Positions 8,750 through 23,162 of a DNA stretch of 23,722 bases are shown piece by piece; positions within the stretch are counted from its first letter, which is position 1, and each line of letters opens with the position of its first letter. This DNA is from a virus. The position numbers and the translations under genes were made by a program. The notes under the pieces were generated by a model, which saw nothing but the letters and a program-made list of their open reading frames with translations, did no database searches and was not told the origin of the DNA. The stretch is from positions 1 to 23,722 of the IMG/VR virus record IMGVR_UViG_3300035698_002190, one strand, 5' to 3'.

Positions 8750-9331
8750 ATGGAAAAAACAAAATCAGGAATAATAATTCCTAAAAGTGATAGTTTAAAA
8801 ATAAAGGGCAAAGTTAAGGCTACTGTGGCAAGAATGAAAAAGCCTCAGCATTTTAGGCTTTACGAGGAGATTCTACGACGTATAAAGATGAAGTTACCTT
8901 TTATAGATTTGGTACGGGAATTGAATTATCTTTGCACTATTAGAATTTTTGAAACTCCGAATACAGTTTGCACAGTCGGTCGATCTATGATAGCAGATAA
9001 TTTAACTAATAGTGGTCCTGATCATACAATGCTGGTTAATTACACGGCAGTAGGTGATGATTCAACCGCGCCAGTTATAGGTGATACGGCTTTAGGAAAT
9101 GAAACGTATAGAAAGACGCCACCGGCTAGTTTGACTAATTCAAATAACATAGCTTACATAACAGCATTTTATACTGCGGCGGAGGCTATCGATACGCACA
9201 AAGAATGTGGTTTATTTTCTGATGGCTCGGGTGTAGCTGATTCAGGTGTTTTATTGATTCACGCTTCTATTGATATATCTAAGACTGGGGTTGATACGCT
9301 TACGGTCGACCACACTCTGACAATTTCTTGA
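8750..9331 (+). CDS. Tail fibre-like protein
   Basis: A 193-residue protein. After a basic N-terminus (residues 1-60) the body has the layout common in siphovirus fibre proteins: GRSMIADNL, then NYTAVGDDSTAPVIGDTALGNETYRK, then IAYITAFYTAAEAIDTHKECGLFSDG, and a closing LLIHASIDISKTGVDTLTVDHTLTIS. That run (value-by-time phrase, TxLGxE, xEAGLFxxG, DTLxVxWTITI) is a recognisable fibre/baseplate wedge module that ends at the distal attachment point. The TGA stop is part of the -35 of the downstream promoter. Likely a virion protein at the tail tip; receptor unknown. Confidence 0.7.
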   Translation: MEKTKSGIIIPKSDSLKIKGKVKATVARMKKPQHFRLYEEILRRIKMKLPFIDLVRELNYLCTIRIFETPNTVCTVGRSMIADNLTNSGPDHTMLVNYTAVGDDSTAPVIGDTALGNETYRKTPPASLTNSNNIAYITAFYTAAEAIDTHKECGLFSDGSGVADSGVLLIHASIDISKTGVDTLTVDHTLTIS

Positions 9332-10984: not shown

Positions 10985-11015
10985 TGTGGAAAACTATCCA
11001 CACCCCCTTTTTTTT
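10985..11015 (+). terminator. Paired DnaA-box-like arms followed by C5-T8 (possible second terminator)
   Basis: TGTGGA (10985-10990) and TCCACA (10997-11002) form a 6-bp stem, then five C and eight T (11008-11015). Each arm is part of a near DnaA box: TGTGGAAAA forward and CTATCCACA reverse, one mismatch each to TGTGGATAA/TTATCCACA. It may be a weak terminator, a protein site, or both. It lies 36 bases before the early promoter. Confidence 0.5.
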
Positions 11016-14086: not shown

Positions 14087-14129
14087 TGTGTATAACTTTA
14101 TTGACTTAATTATTAAAATAAGTTAAAAT
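14087..14129 (+). promoter_or_regulatory. Promoter of the ERF operon with DnaA-box-like site
   Basis: TGTGTATAA (14087-14095, one mismatch to the DnaA box), five bases, TTGACT (14101-14106), 17-bp spacer, TAAAAT (14124-14129). Expected start near 14136; the SD AAAGAAAGG follows at about 14148. Confidence 0.75.
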
Positions 14130-14164
14130 TAATATATATTAATTAAAAAAGAAAGGAAAAAATT

Positions 14165-14719
14165 ATGGTAGATGAAAAAAAAGAGAAATCAAATCAAAGT
14201 GATTTCTACAAGGACTACGGAAATTTAATGATAGAAATTCAAAGTCTAGCAAAAAATCAAGACAACCCATTTTTCAAATCAAAGTACGTGCCGTTAAAAG
14301 ATGTGTTAGCAGAGGCTAAAAAGGTCTGTTTATCTAACAATTTCATTTTTATTCAAAGGCCAATTATTAGACGTAATGGGCCGGAAACAGGAATAATAAA
14401 TGTTTTGGTTACGGAATTAATCCATAAAACAGGCGAAACAAAGGTCGGGGAAATTGAATTGGTTAGGAAAGACAATAGTGATCCGCAGAAACTTGGGGGA
14501 GCATTAACTTATTGTCGTAGATATAGCCTAACAGCTATGCTGGGTATTCAAGAGGAAGATGATGATGGCAATAATGCTAGTGATAATAAGACAGTAGCTC
14601 CAACTGTTGTAGGTCAATGTTGTGAAGATTATCCAAATTGTGCTTGTCCTCAACCAGTAGAGCCAAAAGGAAAAACTAAAAAAGTGGTAAATTTTAATGT
14701 ACCACCGTTTAAAAAATAA
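14165..14719 (+). CDS. erf: ERF-family single-strand annealing protein
   Basis: A 184-residue recombinase that anneals complementary single strands. The ERF core is clear: NPFFKSKYVPLKDVLAEA (residues 34-51), then GIINVLVTELIHKTGE, and DPQKLGGALTYCRRYSL plus AMLGIQEEDDDGN (residues 107-136), the most conserved part of the family. The C-terminal 45 residues are specific, with Cys-rich CCEDYPNCACP and a basic end (FNVPPFKK). It leads the recombination operon with a strong SD and its own promoter. Its partner may be the next gene. Confidence 0.93.
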   Translation: MVDEKKEKSNQSDFYKDYGNLMIEIQSLAKNQDNPFFKSKYVPLKDVLAEAKKVCLSNNFIFIQRPIIRRNGPETGIINVLVTELIHKTGETKVGEIELVRKDNSDPQKLGGALTYCRRYSLTAMLGIQEEDDDGNNASDNKTVAPTVVGQCCEDYPNCACPQPVEPKGKTKKVVNFNVPPFKK

Positions 14720-14729
14720 TAAAAAAATT

Positions 14730-15302
14730 ATGGAAGAATTTAAACTTATTGAGCAAGACGCTTTGGCTGTTATACCTGAGAATGTTATGGATATACAATC
14801 TCAAGATGATTATACAAAGGCCGGAGATTTACTGAAAATTGTAAAAAACAAGGTTAAGAGTTTGGACGAAAAACGAAAAGAATATACTCAACCTATTGAG
14901 CAAACTAAGAAAAAATTGATATCTGATTTTAAAAGGATAGCAGAACCATTGATTGAATTTGGTGCAGAGTTGTCAAATAAGATGGTTGAATTTAATGAGA
15001 TAGAGCAAAAAAGACTAGACGAGGAGCAGAAAAAAATTGATGATGATGCCTTAGAAAAGTTGAAAGAAGATAAAGAAAGCGCGGTTGATGTTCCGGTAGT
15101 CAATGATATAAGGACTACGCGTGGAAATATTGCAACGTCAACGATAACAAAGAGCTGGGATTTTGAAATCCTTGATCCGTTAAAAGTACCAAATGAATAC
15201 TGCAGTCCGGATTCAGTTAAATTACGTCAAGCTGTTAAGTCTGGACAGCGTGAAATTGACGGTGTTAAAATATTTGAAAAAAAATCAATAACTAGTAGAT
15301 AA
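14730..15302 (+). CDS. Coiled-coil recombination-associated phage protein
   Basis: Start chosen at ATG 14730; an in-frame ATG at 14697 lies within the ERF gene. The 190-residue protein has a long coiled coil (residues about 25-120: KVKSLDEKRKEYTQPIEQ, LIEFGAELSNKMVEFNEIEQ). A conserved C-terminal motif follows: KSWDFEILDPLKVPNEYC, SPDSVKLRQAVKSG and REIDGVKIFE. This tail is common in phage proteins encoded with ERF, Sak or RecT (DUF1351-like). It may load or organise the annealing protein; this is by association. Confidence 0.75.
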   Translation: MEEFKLIEQDALAVIPENVMDIQSQDDYTKAGDLLKIVKNKVKSLDEKRKEYTQPIEQTKKKLISDFKRIAEPLIEFGAELSNKMVEFNEIEQKRLDEEQKKIDDDALEKLKEDKESAVDVPVVNDIRTTRGNIATSTITKSWDFEILDPLKVPNEYCSPDSVKLRQAVKSGQREIDGVKIFEKKSITSR

Positions 15303-15306
15303 AATT

Positions 15307-15540
15307 ATGGCAGAAGAAAAAAAAGAGCGAGTATTTGTTGGATTAACAAAGGTAAAAACGTTTCAGAATGGTGGTAAGATAATCAAACTTGGGATGAAGA
15401 TGGAAGATTTACAGCCACACGTTAACGATGGTGGTTGGGTAAATTTAATCATTGCTAGGAAAAAAGATGCTGATGGTACAGGTGAAAAAGATTATTATAC
15501 CTACATTGATGACTACGTACCAAAGCCAAAAGAAAATTAA
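15307..15540 (+). CDS. Hypothetical protein (77 aa)
   Basis: Four bases separate it from the preceding stop. The protein has predicted strands (ERVFVGLTKVKTF, GKIIKLGMKM, GWVNLIIARKKDA, DYYTYIDDYVP), suggesting a small all-beta fold. Such short proteins in ERF operons sometimes are single-strand DNA binders, but there is no recognised family motif. It is the last gene before the promoter region at 15541. Confidence 0.65.
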   Translation: MAEEKKERVFVGLTKVKTFQNGGKIIKLGMKMEDLQPHVNDGGWVNLIIARKKDADGTGEKDYYTYIDDYVPKPKEN

Positions 15541-15707
15541 AGGTCGAAAAATAACTATCGTTTACAACATTACAATGTAGATAATTTGTGGATAAGTAGA
15601 TTAAGATAGTGATGTTTTAGGGTATATCTATTAGGTATGCCCGATAAACATTGTTACTTTGTGGAAAACTTGACATAGGTTTGAGAATAATGTTAAAATA
15701 TTAATAT
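15541..15707 (+). other. Non-coding region with DnaA boxes: candidate origin or control region
   Basis: This 167-bp gap has a perfect DnaA box TGTGGATAA (15587-15595), a near box TGTGGAAAA (15660-15668), a small inverted repeat ACATT-AC-AATGT (15567-15578), AT-rich stretches and a promoter. It lies directly in front of the DnaA domain IV gene and one gene cluster before the replication initiator. That makes it the best candidate origin in the window, but the same parts could be purely a transcription control site. Confidence 0.5.
15660..15699 (+). promoter_or_regulatory. Leaderless promoter of the DnaA-like gene
   Basis: Box TGTGGAAAA (15660-15668), then TTGACA (15670-15675), 18-bp spacer, extended -10 TG-T-TAAAAT (15691-15699). 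The expected start (about 15706) is within two or three bases of the ATG at 15708, so the message should be leaderless. No SD exists. Confidence 0.75.
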
Positions 15708-15998
15708 ATGAAAGACATAAAAATAAAATTGGCTCACGGAGAAATAATAGCTAGAATATGTTTAGATTTTGAAGTAAGTTATGACGACGTGATGAGCAAA
15801 AGTAGAAAAGCCGAGTTGGTAGACGCTAGATCTGTGATAGCGTCTGTTTTATTTCAGCTTGATATTCCTAAGTTAACCATTGCAAGGATATTAAGGAAGA
15901 AAGATCACACTACTATTATTAATTACTTAGAACGCTTGAAAAATAAATCCCGGTTAAGAAAAATGGCTAATGGTTATTTAGAAATTTTTAGCAAGTAA
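15708..15998 (+). CDS. Stand-alone DnaA domain IV (DNA-binding) protein
   Basis: A 96-residue protein that matches only the C-terminal domain of DnaA. The matches are: ICLDFEVSYDDVMSKSRKAELVDARSVIASVL (helix-turn-helix and basic loop, residues 17-48) and KKDHTTIINYL (residues 64-74, the DHT signature that contacts the DnaA box). No AAA+ part is present. By family it should bind TTATCCACA-type boxes, several of which flank its own promoter. It may recruit or block host DnaA, autoregulate, or control the phage promoters that carry the box. The last is inference. Bacterial DnaA is about 450 residues, so this is a domain, not a truncation by frameshift: no upstream remnant is seen. Confidence 0.9.
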   Translation: MKDIKIKLAHGEIIARICLDFEVSYDDVMSKSRKAELVDARSVIASVLFQLDIPKLTIARILRKKDHTTIINYLERLKNKSRLRKMANGYLEIFSK

Positions 15999-16011
15999 TA
16001 TTGGTTCTTTT

Positions 16012-16081
16012 CTGCTCGTCACCTTTCACCACTTTTCCCAAAGTGGATATTACGGACGAGCAGTAGAGAGCTTTGAAAGGT
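16012..16081 (+). promoter_or_regulatory. Candidate structured RNA element masking an SD
   Basis: Outer stem CTGCTCGTC (16012-16020) with GACGAGCAG (16055-16063), nine perfect pairs. Inner stem CCACTTT (16029-16035) with AAAGTGG (16040-16046) and a TCCC loop. ACCTTTC (16021-16027), unpaired between the two stems, is exactly complementary to GAAAGGT (16075-16081), which is the SD of the ORF at 16088. Together these can form a pseudoknot that hides the SD. Alternatives: a DNA hairpin used by the replication initiator. Confidence 0.55.
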
Positions 16082-16087
16082 ACAAAT

Positions 16088-16198
16088 ATGGAATATTTAT
16101 TTATTAGTAACTATGGAGTAGATGATGATAAAATTGTTAAATTTTTAGGTAAGGATTTAGATTTTATTAAAAAGGAACTTGAAATCAATGCAAATTAA
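16088..16198 (+). CDS. Small ORF ahead of the replication initiator (36 aa)
   Basis: ATG at 16088 with SD GAAAGG; ends TAA at 16196-16198 and overlaps the start of the next gene by 11 bases. The peptide is MEYLFISNYG followed by an acidic-basic helix (DDDKIVKFLGKDLDFIKKEL). It may be a leader ORF that couples translation to the replication gene. Function unknown. Confidence 0.55.
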   Translation: MEYLFISNYGVDDDKIVKFLGKDLDFIKKELEINAN

Positions 16199-16922
16199 TA
16201 ATTCACTACATAGAAATTTTGAAGGAGTATGGATACCCAAGGATATTTGGTTGGATAATAATTTGACAATTATGCAAAAATGTATGTTTGTTGAAATTAA
16301 AAGTCTTGATAATGAGGATAATGAATATAAAGGTTGTTTTGCTACTAATAGATATTTTGCTGAATTTTTTGGTATATCAGTAGTGCAGGTAAGTAATCAC
16401 ATTTCTAAATTAAAAAGTAAAAAATATATTAAAGAGGTATCTTTTGATGGCAAAGTAAGAGTGTTGAAATGTTGTGTACAAATGGAGATAACCCTTAAAG
16501 AAACATTGAAGACCCCCTTAAAGAAACCTTTAATACCCCCACAAAGAAACCTTGAAGTCCCTTATAAGAATAATAGTACAGTTAATAATACAACTAGCAA
16601 GGCTGACTTGATTGAAAAATATAAACAAAATTTTTCTTACTTGAATTTAAAATTAGAATGGTATGATTTTGAGGTTTATAATCGTGACCAACGTAAAAAG
16701 CCGATTAAAAGTTTAGAGAGAACGTGGCTTAATTGGCTTAAACAAGCCGAGAAGTTTAGACAACAGTCGCCGGCCGTGGTTCAGCATAAAGAAATGGAAT
16801 TAGAGCAAGAGAAGTTGGAACGAACGAGAATAGAATACGATACAAATAAGGCAACTCCTGATGGAGCAAGAGCTAAAATCGCCGAGGGTAAAAAAATGTT
16901 AGTGGCTAAAATGAAAATATGA
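16188..16922 (+). CDS. Replication initiator with N-terminal HTH (replisome organiser type)
   Basis: Start chosen at ATG 16188, with AAAGGA about 12 bases upstream; an in-frame TTG at 16179 is possible. The 244-residue protein begins with an HTH_36-type domain (FEGVWIPKDIWLDNNLT, then the winged helix ATNRYFAEFFGISVVQVSNHISKLKSKKYI). A Lys/Pro-rich linker with KKPLIPPQ follows. The C-terminal half has WYDFEVYNRDQRKKP and LERTWLNWLKQAEKF, as in phage replication proteins of the O/DnaD-like class that load the helicase. It likely binds the origin. It ends in an ATGA overlap. Confidence 0.8.
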   Translation: MQINNSLHRNFEGVWIPKDIWLDNNLTIMQKCMFVEIKSLDNEDNEYKGCFATNRYFAEFFGISVVQVSNHISKLKSKKYIKEVSFDGKVRVLKCCVQMEITLKETLKTPLKKPLIPPQRNLEVPYKNNSTVNNTTSKADLIEKYKQNFSYLNLKLEWYDFEVYNRDQRKKPIKSLERTWLNWLKQAEKFRQQSPAVVQHKEMELEQEKLERTRIEYDTNKATPDGARAKIAEGKKMLVAKMKI

Positions 16923-17404
16923 ATGAATTAATAACAATTCAATCTACAGAGCACTATCAGCAATTAGTCGAGGATTGTAAATCAATACTCATTGAAAAGA
17001 TTTTTAGGGCTAAAATGGAGGTTATAGAAGCTAAATGGGAAGTAGGTCAAAGGATATCAACGGATAATAAATTTGAGGAATACTCAACGGAGAGCGGTGA
17101 TTTTATTAAACAATTAGCAAAAGATTTAAAAGTTAGCAGGTCTGATCTATATGATAGCGTCAAATTTTATAAAATGTTTCCGGACGGTGTGTCTACTGCA
17201 ATAGACTCGTTAGGCAAAAATCTAAGCTGGACCAAGCTACGGGTTAAGTATTTAGGTAAGCGCGCCACTAAAGAACCGGAGGTTAGATACACGATTGAGG
17301 AAGTAGAAAATGCTTATCATACTTACATAGCCGATAGTGCTAAAACGTTTGAAGAATTTAAAATAATATTAGAGTCAGTAGAAAGGCCTAAGTTAAGAAG
17401 ATGA
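16919..17404 (+). CDS. Helical protein, DUF1016 N-terminal-like
   Basis: A 161-residue helical protein starting in the preceding stop. EVIEAKWEVGQRIS, SGDFIKQLAKDLKVSRSDLYDSVKFYKMFPDG and LSWTKLRVKYL resemble the N-terminal winged helix domain of DUF1016/YhcG-type proteins, which are found with nucleases and in phage regulators. There is no nuclease part, so it may be a DNA-binding or scaffold protein. The resemblance is by eye. Confidence 0.55.
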   Translation: MNELITIQSTEHYQQLVEDCKSILIEKIFRAKMEVIEAKWEVGQRISTDNKFEEYSTESGDFIKQLAKDLKVSRSDLYDSVKFYKMFPDGVSTAIDSLGKNLSWTKLRVKYLGKRATKEPEVRYTIEEVENAYHTYIADSAKTFEEFKIILESVERPKLRR

Positions 17405-17742
17405 GGAGTGGCAATATTAACAATTTTAAGGAAAATGATAGGTTATATTTTACTTGGAATCGTGGGATTTGTTGGTGGTGTGGTAGAAACCACGCAGACT
17501 GTCTTCATCATATTTTTGGCAGAGGACAAAGAGGAGATAATATTCATAGCAGTATTTTGAATGCGGCGCCATTAAATAATTGTAGCTGTCACCTAGACAA
17601 GAATTTGAAAGACAAAGACACTAGGAAAAAGTTTTTAGAGCTAACTCTACAATTTTTAATAAGGCAAGGTTATAAATTAAAAGATAGGGATAATAATTTT
17701 TTAAAGAAGTATGCAGAATACTACACCGACGTTAAAATTTAG
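17401..17742 (+). CDS. HNH-like zinc endonuclease (phage recombination type)
   Basis: A 113-residue protein that starts in the previous stop (ATGA). Cys24 and Cys27 (CWWC), then DCLHHIFGRG (His36, His37), NAAPLNN (55-60) and CSCH (Cys61, Cys63, His64) form an HNH/zinc-bound beta-beta-alpha metal nuclease pattern. It is part of the replication-recombination operon next to a RusA-type resolvase, as in many phages where such enzymes act on branched DNA. It overlaps the RusA gene by 32 bases. Confidence 0.65.
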   Translation: MRSGNINNFKENDRLYFTWNRGICWWCGRNHADCLHHIFGRGQRGDNIHSSILNAAPLNNCSCHLDKNLKDKDTRKKFLELTLQFLIRQGYKLKDRDNNFLKKYAEYYTDVKI

Positions 17743-18082
17743 CTTACCATTGCCACCAAGCAAGAATGTCCGAATGGGCTTTAGCGCTAAGGGAAAAGTT
17801 TATACGAGCCAAAAAGTTAAAGATTATTATGAGTATGTTGAAAAGGTTTTGAGGTTAGTCTTAAAAGCGAATAAGATATTTTTTAGAGATGATAAAATTG
17901 TTATTGAATGTTGGTGGTTTATCAAGAGAAGTAATTGTGACGTGATTAATTACCACGACTGTTTAGGAGATGCAATTAAAAAAGGTATTGAAGTTGATGA
18001 TAGGTGGTTCCTGATCCGTGATATGGATTTTGAAAAAAGTAATGGCTGTCCACACGTTGAAATTAATATGTATTATTTATAA
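17711..18082 (+). CDS. rusA: RusA-family Holliday junction resolvase
   Basis: A 123-residue protein with the RusA pattern. LPLPPSKNVRMGFSAKGKVYTSQKVKDYY (residues 12-40) is the opening loop of the family (PPSxN, then the strand with the Ser/Thr-x-x). It is followed by KRSNCDVINYHDCLGDAIKKG (residues 72-92) and EVDDRWF (residues 94-100), whose aspartates (Asp77, Asp83, Asp88, Asp96) are the metal ligands. It cuts Holliday junctions formed by replication and annealing. The start lies inside the previous gene. Its stop codon overlaps a perfect -10 box for the RNA downstream. Confidence 0.88.
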   Translation: MQNTTPTLKFSLPLPPSKNVRMGFSAKGKVYTSQKVKDYYEYVEKVLRLVLKANKIFFRDDKIVIECWWFIKRSNCDVINYHDCLGDAIKKGIEVDDRWFLIRDMDFEKSNGCPHVEINMYYL

Positions 18083-18083
18083 T
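18057..18083 (+). promoter_or_regulatory. Promoter for a candidate non-coding RNA
   Basis: Perfect TATAAT at 18078-18083, overlapping the RusA stop codon, with TTGAAA at 18057-18062 (15-bp spacer, short). The predicted start falls at about 18088-18090, where the GC-rich segment begins. The short spacer lowers confidence. Confidence 0.45.
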
Positions 18084-18087
18084 TTGT

Positions 18088-18229
18088 GGGACGGCTGATG
18101 CGTGGTTGGTCGTTACCGTCAGAACAAAATGTGTTGCTTTAAGCTTATTACTCCTGTTTGAAAAGTTAAAAGGTTTCAGATATGGCACGGTAACGTATGC
18201 TAGACGCTACAAAATCTGATACACGCACT
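18088..18229 (+). ncRNA. Candidate structured non-coding RNA
   Basis: No ORF of worth covers this gap. Its first 35 bases are about 60% GC, well above the phage background. Pairing segments: TGCGTG (18099-18104) with CACGCA (18222-18227); CGTTACCGT (18111-18119) with ACGGTAACG (18187-18195), nine perfect pairs; TCAGAT (18176-18181) with ATCTGA (18214-18219), which crosses the previous helix and would form a pseudoknot; and a local alternative GACGG (18090-18094) with CCGTC (18116-18120), which competes with the long stem. A promoter ends just before it. No known RNA family is recognised. The end is uncertain. Confidence 0.45.
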
Positions 18230-18235
18230 TATAAT

Positions 18236-18264
18236 TTGCTTAACCTAGCTAAAAATGATATAAT
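18236..18264 (+). promoter_or_regulatory. Promoter of the DUF488-tRNA-modification cluster
   Basis: TTGCTT (18236-18241), 17-bp spacer, perfect -10 TATAAT (18259-18264) with extended TGA before it. Start expected near 18271; SD AAAGAAAGG follows before the ATG at 18300. Confidence 0.75.
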
Positions 18265-18299
18265 GATTATATAAAAATAAAAAAGAAAGGTACAAAATT

Positions 18300-18713
18300 A
18301 TGGAGAAAATTTACTCAGTGGGGCACTCAACTTTAGGTCAAGTTGCGTTGTTAAAAAATTTAAAAAGATACTCAATTCAAATTATAGTTGATGTCCGAAG
18401 TAGGCCGTATTCAAGATATGCGCCACAATTTAACAAAGAGGAGTTAGTTCACTTTTTATTAAGAAACGGTATTCAGTATAAGTGGGCCGGAGAATATATC
18501 GGTGGCTTGGATAAAAATATAGATTGGGACGAGGGTATTAGAAAATTAATTAGATATTCAGAGAATGCTATCGTGTGCGTGATGTGTAGTGAGGGCGATC
18601 CGAAAAAGTGTCATAGATATCAAAAGATTGATCCGTCGCTCAAGGCAAATAATATTGAGATGATACATATTTTAACGAATGGTGAGGCGATGAAGATTAA
18701 TTCATTATTTTAA
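18300..18713 (+). CDS. DUF488 family protein
   Basis: A 137-residue protein with a clear DUF488 signature: YSVGHSTLGQVALLKNL, IIVDVRSRPYSRYAPQFN (residues 28-45), NGIQYKWAGEYIGG, and the C-terminal VCVMCSEGDPKKCHR (residues 92-106) with two cysteines and a histidine. Family function is unsettled; the conserved Cys/His site suggests an enzyme or metal site. It has its own strong SD and promoter, and precedes the tRNA by only five bases. Presence in a phage suggests a base- or RNA-related role, but this is inference. Confidence 0.85.
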   Translation: MEKIYSVGHSTLGQVALLKNLKRYSIQIIVDVRSRPYSRYAPQFNKEELVHFLLRNGIQYKWAGEYIGGLDKNIDWDEGIRKLIRYSENAIVCVMCSEGDPKKCHRYQKIDPSLKANNIEMIHILTNGEAMKINSLF

Positions 18714-18717
18714 ATAT

Positions 18718-18788
18718 TGCGGGATCGTCTAGTGGTAGGACGCTTGACTTTACGTTAAGAAACCGGGGTTCGACTCCTTGTCCCGCAG
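18718..18788 (+). tRNA. tRNA, Gln-like body with predicted anticodon UUA (ochre-suppressor type)
   Basis: Acceptor stem TGCGGGA (18718-18724) with TCCCGCA (18781-18787), seven perfect pairs, discriminator G. D arm GTCT/GGAC with loop AGTGGTA; T arm CGGGG/CCTTG with loop TTCGACT; variable loop four bases. Anticodon arm CTTGA/TTAAG encloses CTTTACG, so positions 34-36 are TTA, which reads UAA. Position 37 is C instead of a purine, and C32-G38 can pair to shrink the loop to five. The U1-A72 pair and G73 are glutamine identity elements. CCA is not encoded. It may decode UAA/UAG as Gln, or be non-decoding. Confidence 0.8.
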
Positions 18789-18794
18789 AAAATT

Positions 18795-20198
18795 ATGCCA
18801 CTTCAACTTGAAAAAATCTTTTTAGGAAACACGCCTAGCGAACAGAGAAAATTTTTGTTAGGTGTCTTGAGGTACTTACACGGTAAAGGTTTTAACAAGG
18901 TAGTTATTCCGGCTTGTGGTCAGTTTACTATTGCGAAGTGCGCAAAGATTGCTGGTTTTCAGAATGAGCAATTAGTTACCAGCGACATTTCGCTTTTTAG
19001 TTCCTTACTTGGTTATCTATACGCTGGAAAGGATATTGACGAAATCAATTTCAAGGTAGTTGGTAAATATGCAGAGGGATATGGTGCAATAGATAAATCT
19101 AAACAACCCGAGAAGGTAGCTTATTTGCTTTTGCTGATGAAGATGGCTCAGTTGCGGACGCATATAAAATACGAGAAGGTAATTTATGACGAGATCGTTG
19201 AAAATTTTGGCGAACACTTGAAAGTAGTAACAGACAAGATGAGCAAGTTAAGAGAATTTTACAAAGGACTTAATTATAATATCGCGGACTTAAGAAAAGA
19301 GATTGAGAGGCCGGAGCTTGATGACAAGACGATAGTGGTTATCAATCCACCAGCGTTCAAGGGCGGGTATGAAAAAATGTTTAAGTTCGAGGAGTTTATT
19401 GATTATAAGTGCGACATTGAAGAATTTGATTTAGCCAAGGAATACAATAAGCTATACGATCATTCCAAGACAAAGCCGTTCCCAGTTATCTGGTACAAGT
19501 ACAAGGAAGTTGAGAAGTTTGATCCGAATGAGGTTATGTTCGCGCAGGAATATTTTGTTGATCGATACGATTATTGGCTTATTACTAAGCCAGATCTTGT
19601 TAAGGACTTCGATTTTAAAGGCCACGTTAATTTTAAAAACAAAAAAGAGCTAAGGAAATATAAAAATTCTGAAATTTTTGGGCCCGCGGACGAGATAACG
19701 CCGGAAACAAAAGTAAGTTTTATATCAGTTGAGCAAGAGATCGCGCTTTATTATCGGGATCTGTGGTGCCACAAATTAGGCAATACGAAAGCAGAGCATT
19801 ATTTTCTTATCGCACTAGACGGCAAAATATTCGCCACAGTCGGCTTTCATTCGTCAGAACTGTTTAGAATGGACAGCACAAGGGTATTTGAGAATTATGG
19901 TTTTACCTGCCCGAGTACGAAATATCCGAATATTAACAGACTGTTGATGTTATTTATTACCTGTAAGGAGATGAAGAAAGTTATGACAGGTTCTATGTCA
20001 AACGTCAATAGGGTGTATGACCTCCGCGGACTTAAAACAACCTGCCTATCAAAATATCGTAAAGTGAAGTTAAACAACGGTTTAATGAATATTATTAAAA
20101 AGGAAAAGTTGCCGGACGGAATGTATAAGCTGATGTACGATACCGACTTTCACGACTACGATTTCAAAGGCGCGATTAATAAATTTTTAACTGAATAA
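18795..20198 (+). CDS. DNA adenine methyltransferase-like protein with C-terminal GNAT-like region
   Basis: A 467-residue protein. Residues 34-70 look like the SAM-binding start of a Rossmann methyltransferase (VVIPACGQFTIAKCAK with PACGQF as motif I, then TSDISLFSSLLGYLY as the acidic loop). Residues 180-190 hold INPPAFKGG, a variant of the NPPY motif IV of N6-adenine methyltransferases. The C-terminal part (GKIFATVGFHSS, VFENYGF, YPNINRLLMLFITCKEMKKVM, RVYDLRGL) resembles a GNAT-like domain, as in Mom-type adenine modifiers and antirestriction methylases. It probably modifies phage DNA against restriction. Its neighbour, a ParB-like gene, supports this. The NPPA variant and the GNAT call are uncertain. 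Confidence 0.65.
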   Translation: MPLQLEKIFLGNTPSEQRKFLLGVLRYLHGKGFNKVVIPACGQFTIAKCAKIAGFQNEQLVTSDISLFSSLLGYLYAGKDIDEINFKVVGKYAEGYGAIDKSKQPEKVAYLLLLMKMAQLRTHIKYEKVIYDEIVENFGEHLKVVTDKMSKLREFYKGLNYNIADLRKEIERPELDDKTIVVINPPAFKGGYEKMFKFEEFIDYKCDIEEFDLAKEYNKLYDHSKTKPFPVIWYKYKEVEKFDPNEVMFAQEYFVDRYDYWLITKPDLVKDFDFKGHVNFKNKKELRKYKNSEIFGPADEITPETKVSFISVEQEIALYYRDLWCHKLGNTKAEHYFLIALDGKIFATVGFHSSELFRMDSTRVFENYGFTCPSTKYPNINRLLMLFITCKEMKKVMTGSMSNVNRVYDLRGLKTTCLSKYRKVKLNNGLMNIIKKEKLPDGMYKLMYDTDFHDYDFKGAINKFLTE

Positions 20199-20200
20199 TT

Positions 20201-20951
20201 ATGCGTGATGAAAAAGATAGACAATTTGAAAGGCTATTCGAGATCGATAAAAACTTTGCTATTTATAGGGTTGCTGTTGAATTGCTAAGAGAGCAAGACA
20301 AGAATGCTAGAGTTATGTCAAACGACAAGTTCGATCGCCTTACTGAAAATATTAAAAAGGACGGCAGACTTGAGAGTCTACCTCTTTGCGTTAAAAAAGG
20401 CAAATCAGGCCGGGAATGAGGAATTTCATATAATTTCGGGTCATCATCGCGTCAGGGCCGCGCGCAAGGCAATGATTCTTAATATCCCGTGTTTAGTTAT
20501 TGAGAGAGAGATGAGTACGGACGAGATTGTATCAAAACAGCTAAGCCATAATTCGCTAACTGGCTTTGACGATAAGCAGGTTTTAAAGGCTCTATACGAT
20601 GAGATCCAAAATATTGATTTCAAAATCGCGTCAGGCCTAACGGACCAAGAAATTAATTTTGACCTAGACGCCGTAAGCATTGACGATATTAAATTAAATT
20701 TGGACTACGAGCTTATTAATATACTGTTTTTGGCTAAGCATACAGAAAAGTTTGAGGAAGTTATTAATTCACTCGCCCCGGAAGCTAAGATATACCTAGC
20801 GGATAAAGAAGACTTTAATAGGTTTGCCGAAACTGTCCGCAAAGTATCTGCCCGCGACAATATAAAAAACGTCGGAACAATAATGGTTCGAATGATGGAT
20901 ATTGTAGAGGAGTATTTAAAAAATAATCCTAAAGAGGAGAAAAAAGATTAG
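20201..20951 (+). CDS. ParB-like protein, split by a frameshift at an A6 run
   Basis: Frame 20201-20419 gives ENIKKDGRLESLPLCVKK; the continuation with EFHIISGHHRVRAARK (the ParB/Srx GxxR signature) and TDEIVSKQLSHNSLTGF lies in the +1 frame and ends at 20951. With one A fewer in the A6 run (20393-20398) the two halves join as VKK-ANQAGNEEF into one 249-residue protein. So either the gene is broken, the run is a sequencing error, or frame is restored by transcriptional slippage on A6. ParB-like proteins in phages are linked to DNA modification, nicking or partition. The 3' half is helical and acidic. Evidence for the intact reading is strong. Confidence 0.75.
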
Positions 20952-20972
20952 TGATTAACAAAAATACAGTTT

Positions 20973-20986
20973 GGCTTATTTAAGCC
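20973..20986 (+). repeat. Inverted repeat before the terminase genes
   Basis: GGCTTA (20973-20978) and TAAGCC (20981-20986) with a TT centre, in the 81-bp gap between the ParB-like and small terminase genes. It could be an operator or a small hairpin. There is no T-run after it. Confidence 0.55.
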
Positions 20987-21032
20987 GTTAAACGCTAAAA
21001 AGGTAACGAATTAGACTAAGATAAACTAAAAT

Positions 21033-21560
21033 ATGCCAGAAGAAAAAAAAGAAGAAGAAAAAATATGGTTGAAACTACCATTAAAAGATAGACTAGCGGT
21101 TGAGTTACGCTATATAGGCCTAAGAGCGCAAGAGATTGCTGATAGGATTGAGATTCCTAAATCTACTGTTGATGGATATTTTGATGAGAATGGAAGGCTA
21201 CGTATTCAATACGAGGCTTTTGAAAGGTTTATGAATAAGCAACGTGAGGAAGTGTTAAAGAATAAGCTAATTGAAGTAGACGAAAATATTTACAGGATCA
21301 CTACTTTAGTTATGAGGAAGTTTGGTCAAAGAGTTCAAGATGATGAAGGTGTTAAGCTAGAAGCTAAGGATTTTAAAATAGCTTGGGAGATTCAAAGGGT
21401 TATGCAAGGTTTAGCAACAGATGTTAAGCGTCAAGATATGACTTTCAATCAAGATGAATTGGATAATGAAGCTGAGGAGATACGTCAATTAATGGAAGAT
21501 AACAAGAAACGAAAGGACAAGGAGAGAAAGGATCAGGAGGAAAAAGAGGAGAAGAAATAG
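21033..21560 (+). CDS. terS: Terminase small subunit
   Basis: A 175-residue protein with an N-terminal helix-turn-helix (LAVELRYIGLRAQEIADRIEIPKSTVDGYF), a central helical region suited to oligomer formation (EEVLKNKLIEVDENIYRITTLV), and a very charged Lys/Glu C-terminal tail. It recognises the packaging site and stimulates the large terminase encoded directly after it. The terminase start GTG abuts its TAG. Gene order and HTH support the call. Confidence 0.82.
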   Translation: MPEEKKEEEKIWLKLPLKDRLAVELRYIGLRAQEIADRIEIPKSTVDGYFDENGRLRIQYEAFERFMNKQREEVLKNKLIEVDENIYRITTLVMRKFGQRVQDDEGVKLEAKDFKIAWEIQRVMQGLATDVKRQDMTFNQDELDNEAEEIRQLMEDNKKRKDKERKDQEEKEEKK

Positions 21561-22928
21561 GTGGCTATTGAAGATATACTGTTTAAAAATCGTGACGGCA
21601 AACGTCAGATAATGAAGAAGACACAGCACGAGATTTTTAATCTGATCGCTAACCGGGAGCACCCGAGAAATACGATATGTTGCCATACTAGATATGGTAA
21701 GTCAATGACGATAGCTCAGGCAGTTCTTTTCAGAGTAGTATTCCACCCGGAAACTTGGATTTTTATTGGTCCAAAAAAAGAACAGGCTGAAATTCTGATG
21801 AATCATCTTATACAGCACTTGTTCGATTCGTCTAAATTTTACTCACAGTTAGACGTTGATATACCGATTGAGAGATTAAAGAAAAAAGAACGGAAGGATC
21901 GTTTAACTTTTAGGAGAGGCGGAGAGGTCTATGTCTTATCGGCTCAAGCTACTAATGCCCATAATCTAGGCGCGTTGCTTGGACACGGTTCAGCTAATAT
22001 CATTATGGACGAGGCGCCATTGATTCCTGATCCTGTTGAGGCTATGATATTCCGAATGCTTGCTAACTCGGCAGATAACTTTTTGCTTAAGGTAGGTAAT
22101 GCGTTTGAAAATAATCATTTTAGACGTTCGTTCCACGATGATGCTTATAGGAAAATTATCGTTGACTGTTATAAAGGTTTAGAGGAAAGTAAGGTTTTGC
22201 CTTATGACGAGGGTTACTTAACTCAGTCAATGATTGATGAGGTTGGAGATAGGCCATTTTTTGAGCAGTTATGGGAGTGTAAATTTTCAGAAGGTTCGGT
22301 TACTGATGAAAGAGGTTATACTCCAATAATTACTGAGAAAGAATTGTTGGCTTCATTCGATAGATTCGATAAGTTGGATAAGAAGATCGACACTATACCA
22401 ACGATAGGAAATGACGTTGGGGCCGGAGGTGATTACTCGGTACATTACGCTAGATGGCCTAAATTCGGCCGTAGGATTGATCGGAACAAGGATAGGGACA
22501 CAATGAGTCAAGTTGCTAGGATTAGGAAGTTTAGAGATGAATTTAAGGTTGATGAGGATTATCCGTATTACGTGATTGATAAAATTGGTATTGGTACAGG
22601 TGTTGTTGATCGATGTCTTGAATTAGATATACCGGTTGTTGGATTTGTTGCCGGTTCGAATGCACAAGACACAGAGAGATTTTCAAACGCTAAGTCAGAG
22701 GCATACTGGGATTTAGCTCAATGGGTAAAAAAGAATGCGGTTGAGAGAGATAAGGATTTATTACAACAGCTACCTGAGATCCGTTATAAGGAAGATTCAG
22801 AACGTAGAGTGAAGATCGAACCAAAGCAGGATTATGTTAAGAGAATGGGACATAGCCCTGATGACGCTGAGGCTTTAATGCTTACGTTTGCACCAAGAGA
22901 ACCTGAGCCTGAATTAATGATTTTATGA
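21561..22928 (+). CDS. terL: Terminase large subunit
   Basis: A 455-residue packaging motor. ATPase: variant Walker A TRYGKSM (residues 43-49), Walker B NIIMDE (147-151; Asp150, Glu151). Nuclease: Asp285 (GNDVG), Asp340 (YYVID) and Asp434/435 (SPDDAEALM) as metal ligands, the RNase H-type pattern of TerL. It begins with GTG directly after the small subunit stop; GAGGAG about nine bases upstream is its SD. The length matches TerL. It ends before a leaderless promoter. Confidence 0.95.
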   Translation: MAIEDILFKNRDGKRQIMKKTQHEIFNLIANREHPRNTICCHTRYGKSMTIAQAVLFRVVFHPETWIFIGPKKEQAEILMNHLIQHLFDSSKFYSQLDVDIPIERLKKKERKDRLTFRRGGEVYVLSAQATNAHNLGALLGHGSANIIMDEAPLIPDPVEAMIFRMLANSADNFLLKVGNAFENNHFRRSFHDDAYRKIIVDCYKGLEESKVLPYDEGYLTQSMIDEVGDRPFFEQLWECKFSEGSVTDERGYTPIITEKELLASFDRFDKLDKKIDTIPTIGNDVGAGGDYSVHYARWPKFGRRIDRNKDRDTMSQVARIRKFRDEFKVDEDYPYYVIDKIGIGTGVVDRCLELDIPVVGFVAGSNAQDTERFSNAKSEAYWDLAQWVKKNAVERDKDLLQQLPEIRYKEDSERRVKIEPKQDYVKRMGHSPDDAEALMLTFAPREPEPELMIL

Positions 22929-22937
22929 TATATTAAT

Positions 22938-22979
22938 TGTGGATAACTTCCTTGACAACATTATTATATATGTTATACT
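22938..22979 (+). promoter_or_regulatory. Leaderless promoter with perfect DnaA box
   Basis: TGTGGATAA (22938-22946, perfect), five bases, TTGACA (22952-22957), 16-bp spacer, extended -10 TG-T-TATACT (22971-22979). Start expected at about 22986, exactly the ATG of the next gene. Confidence 0.8.
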
Positions 22980-22985
22980 GGTTAT

Positions 22986-23162
22986 ATGAATAAAAAAGAT
23001 ATGAGAACTTACAAACAAACCGCTTTCAGATTTTCTCCGGAAACTGAAAAACAATTATTGAAATTAACATTAATTGAATCAATTACGAAAAATAAGCAGG
23101 TTCCTAAAGTTGACATTATTCGTGATCTTATTAAAAATGCTTATAAAAAATTAGATAATTAA
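22986..23162 (+). CDS. Ribbon-helix-helix DNA-binding protein
   Basis: A 58-residue protein translated from a leaderless message. It opens with a strand (YKQTAFRFS) and continues with a helix (PETEKQLLKLTLIESI) and a second helix after KQVPKVDIIRDLIKNAYKKL. Strand-helix-helix with a basic, polar strand is the RHH (Arc/CopG) fold. It is likely a transcription repressor, perhaps of its own promoter or of the packaging/head genes that follow. No SD. Confidence 0.75.
   Translation: MNKKDMRTYKQTAFRFSPETEKQLLKLTLIESITKNKQVPKVDIIRDLIKNAYKKLDN

Follow-up and report, generated by a model that had tools for sequence, protein, structure and literature searches.

A DnaA-type box lies directly beside the −35 hexamer in three of the five strong promoters of a stretch of viral DNA, and the arrangement of such a box, a promoter and a closely placed start codon recurs in other virus contigs. 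The stretch, called here the window, comprises the 23,722 bases of the virus record IMGVR_UViG_3300035698_002190. On balance the element is probably a DnaA-responsive phage promoter, for which host DnaA would be the general reader and on which a stand-alone DnaA domain IV, encoded by this phage, would act as a competitor and self-regulator.

The strong sigma-70-like promoters of the window were found on the plus strand in non-coding DNA, at 9328, 11052, 14101, 15670 and 22952. The last three carry a DnaA-type box 1–5 bases 5′ of the −35, as the first-pass annotation had claimed. The boxes, TGTGTATAA, TGTGGAAAA and TGTGGATAA, have the same orientation, are centred about 42–45 bases 5′ of the predicted start and all fit TTWTNCACA, the E. 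coli DnaA box consensus (PMC7561715), which may not be that of the host. Box TGTGTATAA (TTATACACA, 14087–14095, plus strand) is located 5 nt 5′ of the −35 of the promoter TTGACT-N17-TAAAAT (14101–14129, plus strand), which drives the recombination gene for an ERF-type single-stranded DNA annealing protein (14165–14719, plus strand; ATG at 14165, Shine-Dalgarno sequence AGAAAGG). Box TGTGGAAAA (TTTTCCACA, 15660–15668, plus strand) is separated by 1 nt from the −35 of TTGACA-N18-TAAAAT (15670–15699, plus strand), and 8 nt separate this promoter from the ATG of the 96-residue domain IV protein (15708–15998, plus strand). Box TGTGGATAA (22938–22946, plus strand) precedes by 5 nt the −35 of TTGACA-N16-TATACT (22952–22979, plus strand), which lies 6 nt from the ATG of a 58-residue protein proposed to be of the ribbon-helix-helix type (22986–23162, plus strand). 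These three boxes are single. A pair is found about 75 nt 5′ of the 15670 promoter, where a second exact copy of TGTGGATAA (15587–15595, plus strand; 9 of 9 matches) forms a tandem with the one-mismatch box TGTAGATAA (15576–15584, plus strand; 8 of 9) at a spacing of 2 nt. The two exact boxes counted earlier are thus those at 15587 and 22938, whereas a variant, TGTGGAAAA, adjoins the 15670 promoter. The coordinates given earlier are right. The reported identity of the segments 14087–14106 and 22938–22957 at 16 of 20 positions was recomputed and is correct. Inverted, abutting box-like sites, TGTGGAAAA/CTATCCACA (TGTGGAAAACTATCCACA, 10985–11002), are also present about 50 nt 5′ of the 11052 promoter; a weak terminator hairpin is another reading of the same bases.

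In the whole window, boxes with one mismatch or none number 14, which is mildly high (7.1 expected; 3 of 100 shuffles as high). Eight of these 14 fall in the roughly 9% of the window that is non-coding, where 0.61 would be expected and none of 2000 shuffles reaches eight, so that the earlier remark calling single-mismatch boxes “not unusual” does not hold in non-coding DNA. Exact boxes number two in non-coding DNA against 0.02 expected. When the 50 bases 5′ of each strong promoter were shuffled, the chance of an adjacent box was about 0.001 or less per promoter, and for three of five promoters it comes to about 1e-9, a figure to be read as “very unlikely” and not as exact, since both the enrichment and the adjacency tests were designed after the boxes had been seen. 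These results support the view that the boxes of the window are of the DnaA type, do not lie at random and go with promoters.

The product of the 15708 gene had been described as DnaA domain IV alone, and this description is borne out by both profile and fold. It scores 42.5 bits against the Pfam family PF08299 (Bac_DnaA_C), for which the curated cut-off is 31.5, and its AlphaFold model (pLDDT 86) matches 1L8Q, the Aquifex DnaA, with a TM-score of 0.85 and 1J1V with 0.79; the Foldseek probability is 1.00, although the E-values are no better than 4e-3 to 5e-3. In 1J1V, the domain IV of E. coli is in complex with a DnaA box. Among the base-contacting residues of DnaA, namely R399, P423, D433, H434, T435 and H439 (PMC7561715), the phage protein keeps R399, D433, H434 and T435 as R33, D66, H67 and T68, by a manual mapping of the E. 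coli numbering. P423 is replaced by L56 and H439 by N72, and an Asn at the latter position (TTIIN) is found in several full-length DnaA proteins too. Profile and fold together identify the protein as a genuine DnaA domain IV, and it retains most of the residues that contact bases. The AAA+ domain is absent from the 96-residue open reading frame, and the protein therefore cannot serve alone as an initiator.

Relatives of this protein are encoded by at least 460 virus stretches. Its matches in genomes proved to be full-length dnaA genes of hosts, and so did MT837747. The domain IV and ERF proteins, used to look for closely related early regions, returned distant matches only. In 84 other loci with a stand-alone DnaA C-terminal domain (DnaA-C), mostly pelagiphage-like, a TTWTNCACA box was found within 350 nt upstream in none and within 500 nt in two, and among the loci read the combination of box and DnaA-C gene is therefore peculiar to the window.

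The messages of the 15708 and 22986 genes are predicted to be leaderless, based on the distances of 8 nt and 6 nt, respectively, between the −10 and the ATG, and on a search for a Shine-Dalgarno sequence 5′ of the two genes, which found none; about half of the genes of the window likewise have no clear one. The predicted start of the 15670 promoter falls within a few bases of the ATG at 15708. The 22986 protein has no Pfam match and shows a weak match to a PHROG repressor family (E 0.049), and its predicted structure contains two helices (pTM 0.35) with no useful match in the PDB. In contigs L120, L122, L142 and others similar to them, an ATG 4–12 bases 3′ of a strong −10 is common even where the box is missing. 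Such an ATG follows 32 of 88 promoters in contigs of this type as opposed to 2 of 169 in pelagiphage-type loci, which suggests a host group rich in leaderless genes.

A scan of IMG/VR for TGTGGATAAC-N0-6-TTGACA returned at least 120 contigs, and in the 80 of these that were taken further, a −10 follows TTGACA in 37% of cases with the box and in 17.5% of boxless cases from the same loci (p=2e-4). A strict form of the element, consisting of the box, the −35, the −10 and an ATG exactly 6 bases after the −10, is present in 38 other virus contigs, compared with none for a reversed box, the sole control pattern scanned; the 22938 promoter of the window fits this strict form as well. The 38 contigs fall into five clusters (28, seven and three singletons) that share no DNA of 300 bases or longer, most contigs belonging to one cluster, and they contain 19 distinct promoters once near-identical ones are merged. 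The gap between box and −35, counted after TGTGGATAAC, is 4–6 bases in 36 of the 38, and within the cluster of 28 similar promoter segments precede different genes. In six of the 19, another exact box lies upstream at a distance of 2 or 3 bases. Over 68 distinct sites, the spacing of a second exact box is 3 nt in five cases, 2 nt in two and 0 nt in one, and no further spacing occurs up to 24 nt. In vivo, E. coli DnaA binds box pairs with a spacing of 2 or 3 bases (PMC11317965), and with this agreement in spacing the tandem viral boxes are most likely DnaA sites.

Neither the 27 whole box-promoter contigs, which may be incomplete, nor two relatives that share the capsid gene were found to encode a DnaA-C domain. 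A search for the hosts of the box-promoter contigs found nothing at the DNA level for one group; the other matched varied phages, and only in ribonucleotide reductase. The element was found in none of 399 bacterial genomes of one phylum, a count that is uninformative as about zero would be expected in that amount of sequence.

One contig, L022, overlaps the window over 2,942 identical bases and adds 2,083 bases upstream of its start. Further relatives were obtained with the terminase and the capsid, but in these the DnaA-C region is either missing or not covered. L027 and L030, which have the capsid gene in common with the window, both contain boxes at the promoter 5′ of a portal-like gene, a label given from sequence reading and gene order and not from an HMM. 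The promoter in L030 reads TGTGGATAAC-TCT-TTTACA-N17-TACTCT with the box co-oriented, and the one in L027 has two boxes of opposite orientation, the nearer being about 10 bases 5′ of TTGACA-N17-TATTCT. G001, whose terminase is 55% identical to that of the window and in which no DnaA-C was found, has no box at its portal promoter, but a small gene inside its interrupted capsid gene comes with TGTGGATAAC-N4-TTGATT-N17-TATAAT. With promoter boxes in all three relatives, yet none at the portal promoter of G001 and a change in the linked gene, the box position is partly conserved and its linked gene variable. Inserts with HNH-type endonuclease genes interrupt the capsid gene of L026, L030 and G001, and Rfam gave no intron match for L026, L030 or L277. 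The leaders between promoter and portal gene in the relatives L027 (3858–3998, plus strand) and L277 (1093–1240, minus strand) contain two strong hairpins each (z about −5) and match no Rfam family; they are possibly a conserved late leader RNA.

From what was observed or computed, i.e. the boxes with their positions, non-randomness and recurrence, and the domain IV fold with most of its contact residues, we infer binding, the identity of the binder, the sign of regulation, the leaderless transcripts and the host. A protein bound at about −42 to −45, adjoining the −35, could contact or exclude RNA polymerase, and a box near −43 would suit either an activator touching the polymerase or a blocking repressor; activation is the favoured sign, as a guess made from the box position. 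Host DnaA would be the general reader of the box promoters, and the recombination and replication genes behind the 14101 and 15670 promoters, together with the gene after the terminase behind 22952, would respond to host DnaA in its free or active state. For host DnaA, the tandem pair at 15576/15587 would be a suitable site. The domain IV protein, whose gene stands behind such a promoter, would bind at the boxes of these promoters as well, free of ATP control and of DnaA–DnaA contacts, and would thereby regulate its own gene and compete with host DnaA. That host DnaA is the more general reader is argued by the recurrence of the element in contigs devoid of DnaA-C and by the 84 DnaA-C loci, none of them boxed within 350 nt.

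The first-pass annotation had proposed a regulatory circuit run by the domain IV protein, and the boxes and the protein on which it was built stand; that the protein is the purpose of the element is not supported, given that none of the 27 box-promoter contigs encodes DnaA-C. A version of this circuit in which the domain IV protein is a dedicated transcription factor of the box promoters and host DnaA plays a minor part is rather unlikely. It draws on the kept fold and contact residues, on the three box-like sites upstream of the protein's own gene and on the suitability of a monomeric domain for single boxes, but has to face the element in viruses that have no such gene and the other stand-alone DnaA-C genes that have no upstream box. 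Since E. coli DnaA mostly needs pairs in vivo (PMC11317965), where its binding to lone boxes is poor, and the promoter boxes are single, reading by host DnaA is weakened at these three sites. By analogy, the monomeric domain IV could fit single boxes better, an isolated domain IV being bound to one in 1J1V, and this counts as one point for the earlier proposal. In this phage, action of a captured domain IV at these boxes is plausible as a layer added to reading by host DnaA.

The cluster at 15576–15668 could instead belong to a phage replication origin that host DnaA recognises, the other boxes being auxiliary or due to chance. Three box-like sites lie within these 93 nt, two of them paired at 2-nt spacing, the cluster adjoins the DnaA-C gene, the neighbouring gene at 16179 matches replication initiation proteins, and a strong structure lies between the two genes; however, the GC skew is monotonic with no turning point, and the −35-adjacent boxes at 14087, at 22938 and in other viruses would be left unexplained; an origin is improbable. 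Even less probable is that the motif is unrelated to DnaA and serves as an upstream element of promoters in the host group generally: the fixed place beside the −35 in several virus clusters would fit this, but the motif is absent from other leaderless promoters of the same contigs, its tandem copies keep the spacing of DnaA pairs and the 9-mer fits the DnaA consensus. That box-like words are incidental in AT-rich phage DNA agrees with the window-wide count taken alone and is hardly credible in view of the non-coding enrichment, the adjacency test and the reversed-box control.

DnaA is a known activator or repressor of bacterial promoters, including those of dnaA and nrdAB, and in bacteriophage lambda host DnaA activates transcription of ori-lambda (PMC8203912). 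DnaA boxes are found at those bacterial promoters as in the window, where they differ in residing in phage DNA, in lying at a fixed place a few bases 5′ of the −35 and in preceding, in two of three cases, a gene predicted to be leaderless. Lambda shares with the proposed mechanism the control of phage transcription by host DnaA, and differs in phage group and box placement. Lambda is not known to encode a domain IV protein. Pelagiphages of the HTVC010P type encode DnaA among their proteins (PMC6811365), and theirs is likewise a C-terminal domain devoid of AAA+ and located 3′ of a single-strand annealing gene. The pelagiphage proteins are 160–190 residues long, with an N-terminal extension and no consensus box upstream, whereas that of the window has 96 residues and boxes; the identity is about 29–33% over the common domain. 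Sites for a host cell-cycle regulator occur similarly in non-coding DNA of alphaproteobacterial phages, but there the regulator is CtrA, and DnaA sites showed no positional bias (PMC9437464). Transcriptional control by DnaA, also in lambda (PMC8203912), and stand-alone DnaA-C genes in phages are thus already known. No phage study of a box-promoter-leaderless element was found in the open-access literature, in which the recurrent viral element appears to be undescribed.

A wider and more tentative idea is that several unrelated phage lineages take host DnaA, and with it the state of replication, as the input to leaderless promoters, and that in this phage a captured domain IV, monomeric and independent of ATP, competes at those boxes and moves the promoters from the control of the host to that of the phage. 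If true, phages would repeatedly have placed promoters under the replication initiator of bacteria, and this would be a directly testable route for a phage to sense the growth or replication of its host and to time its genes accordingly. Phages may in this way read the state of host DNA replication, and a domain IV made by the phage would be a natural competitor of DnaA and a tool for probing regulation that depends on DnaA.

Two further features of the window are an RNA hairpin and a tRNA. The interval between the DnaA-C and replication genes contains a very stable hairpin (16003–16090, plus strand; −33 kcal/mol, z about −5), in which a further 8-bp pairing, ACCTTTCA/TGAAAGGT, would form a pseudoknot; it has no match in Rfam. 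The tRNA (18717–18789, plus strand) scores 50 bits with the Rfam tRNA model and therefore has a real tRNA shape. It has an unusual C at position 37, and its anticodon, UUA, would pair with the stop codon UAA, which makes it a possible ochre suppressor.
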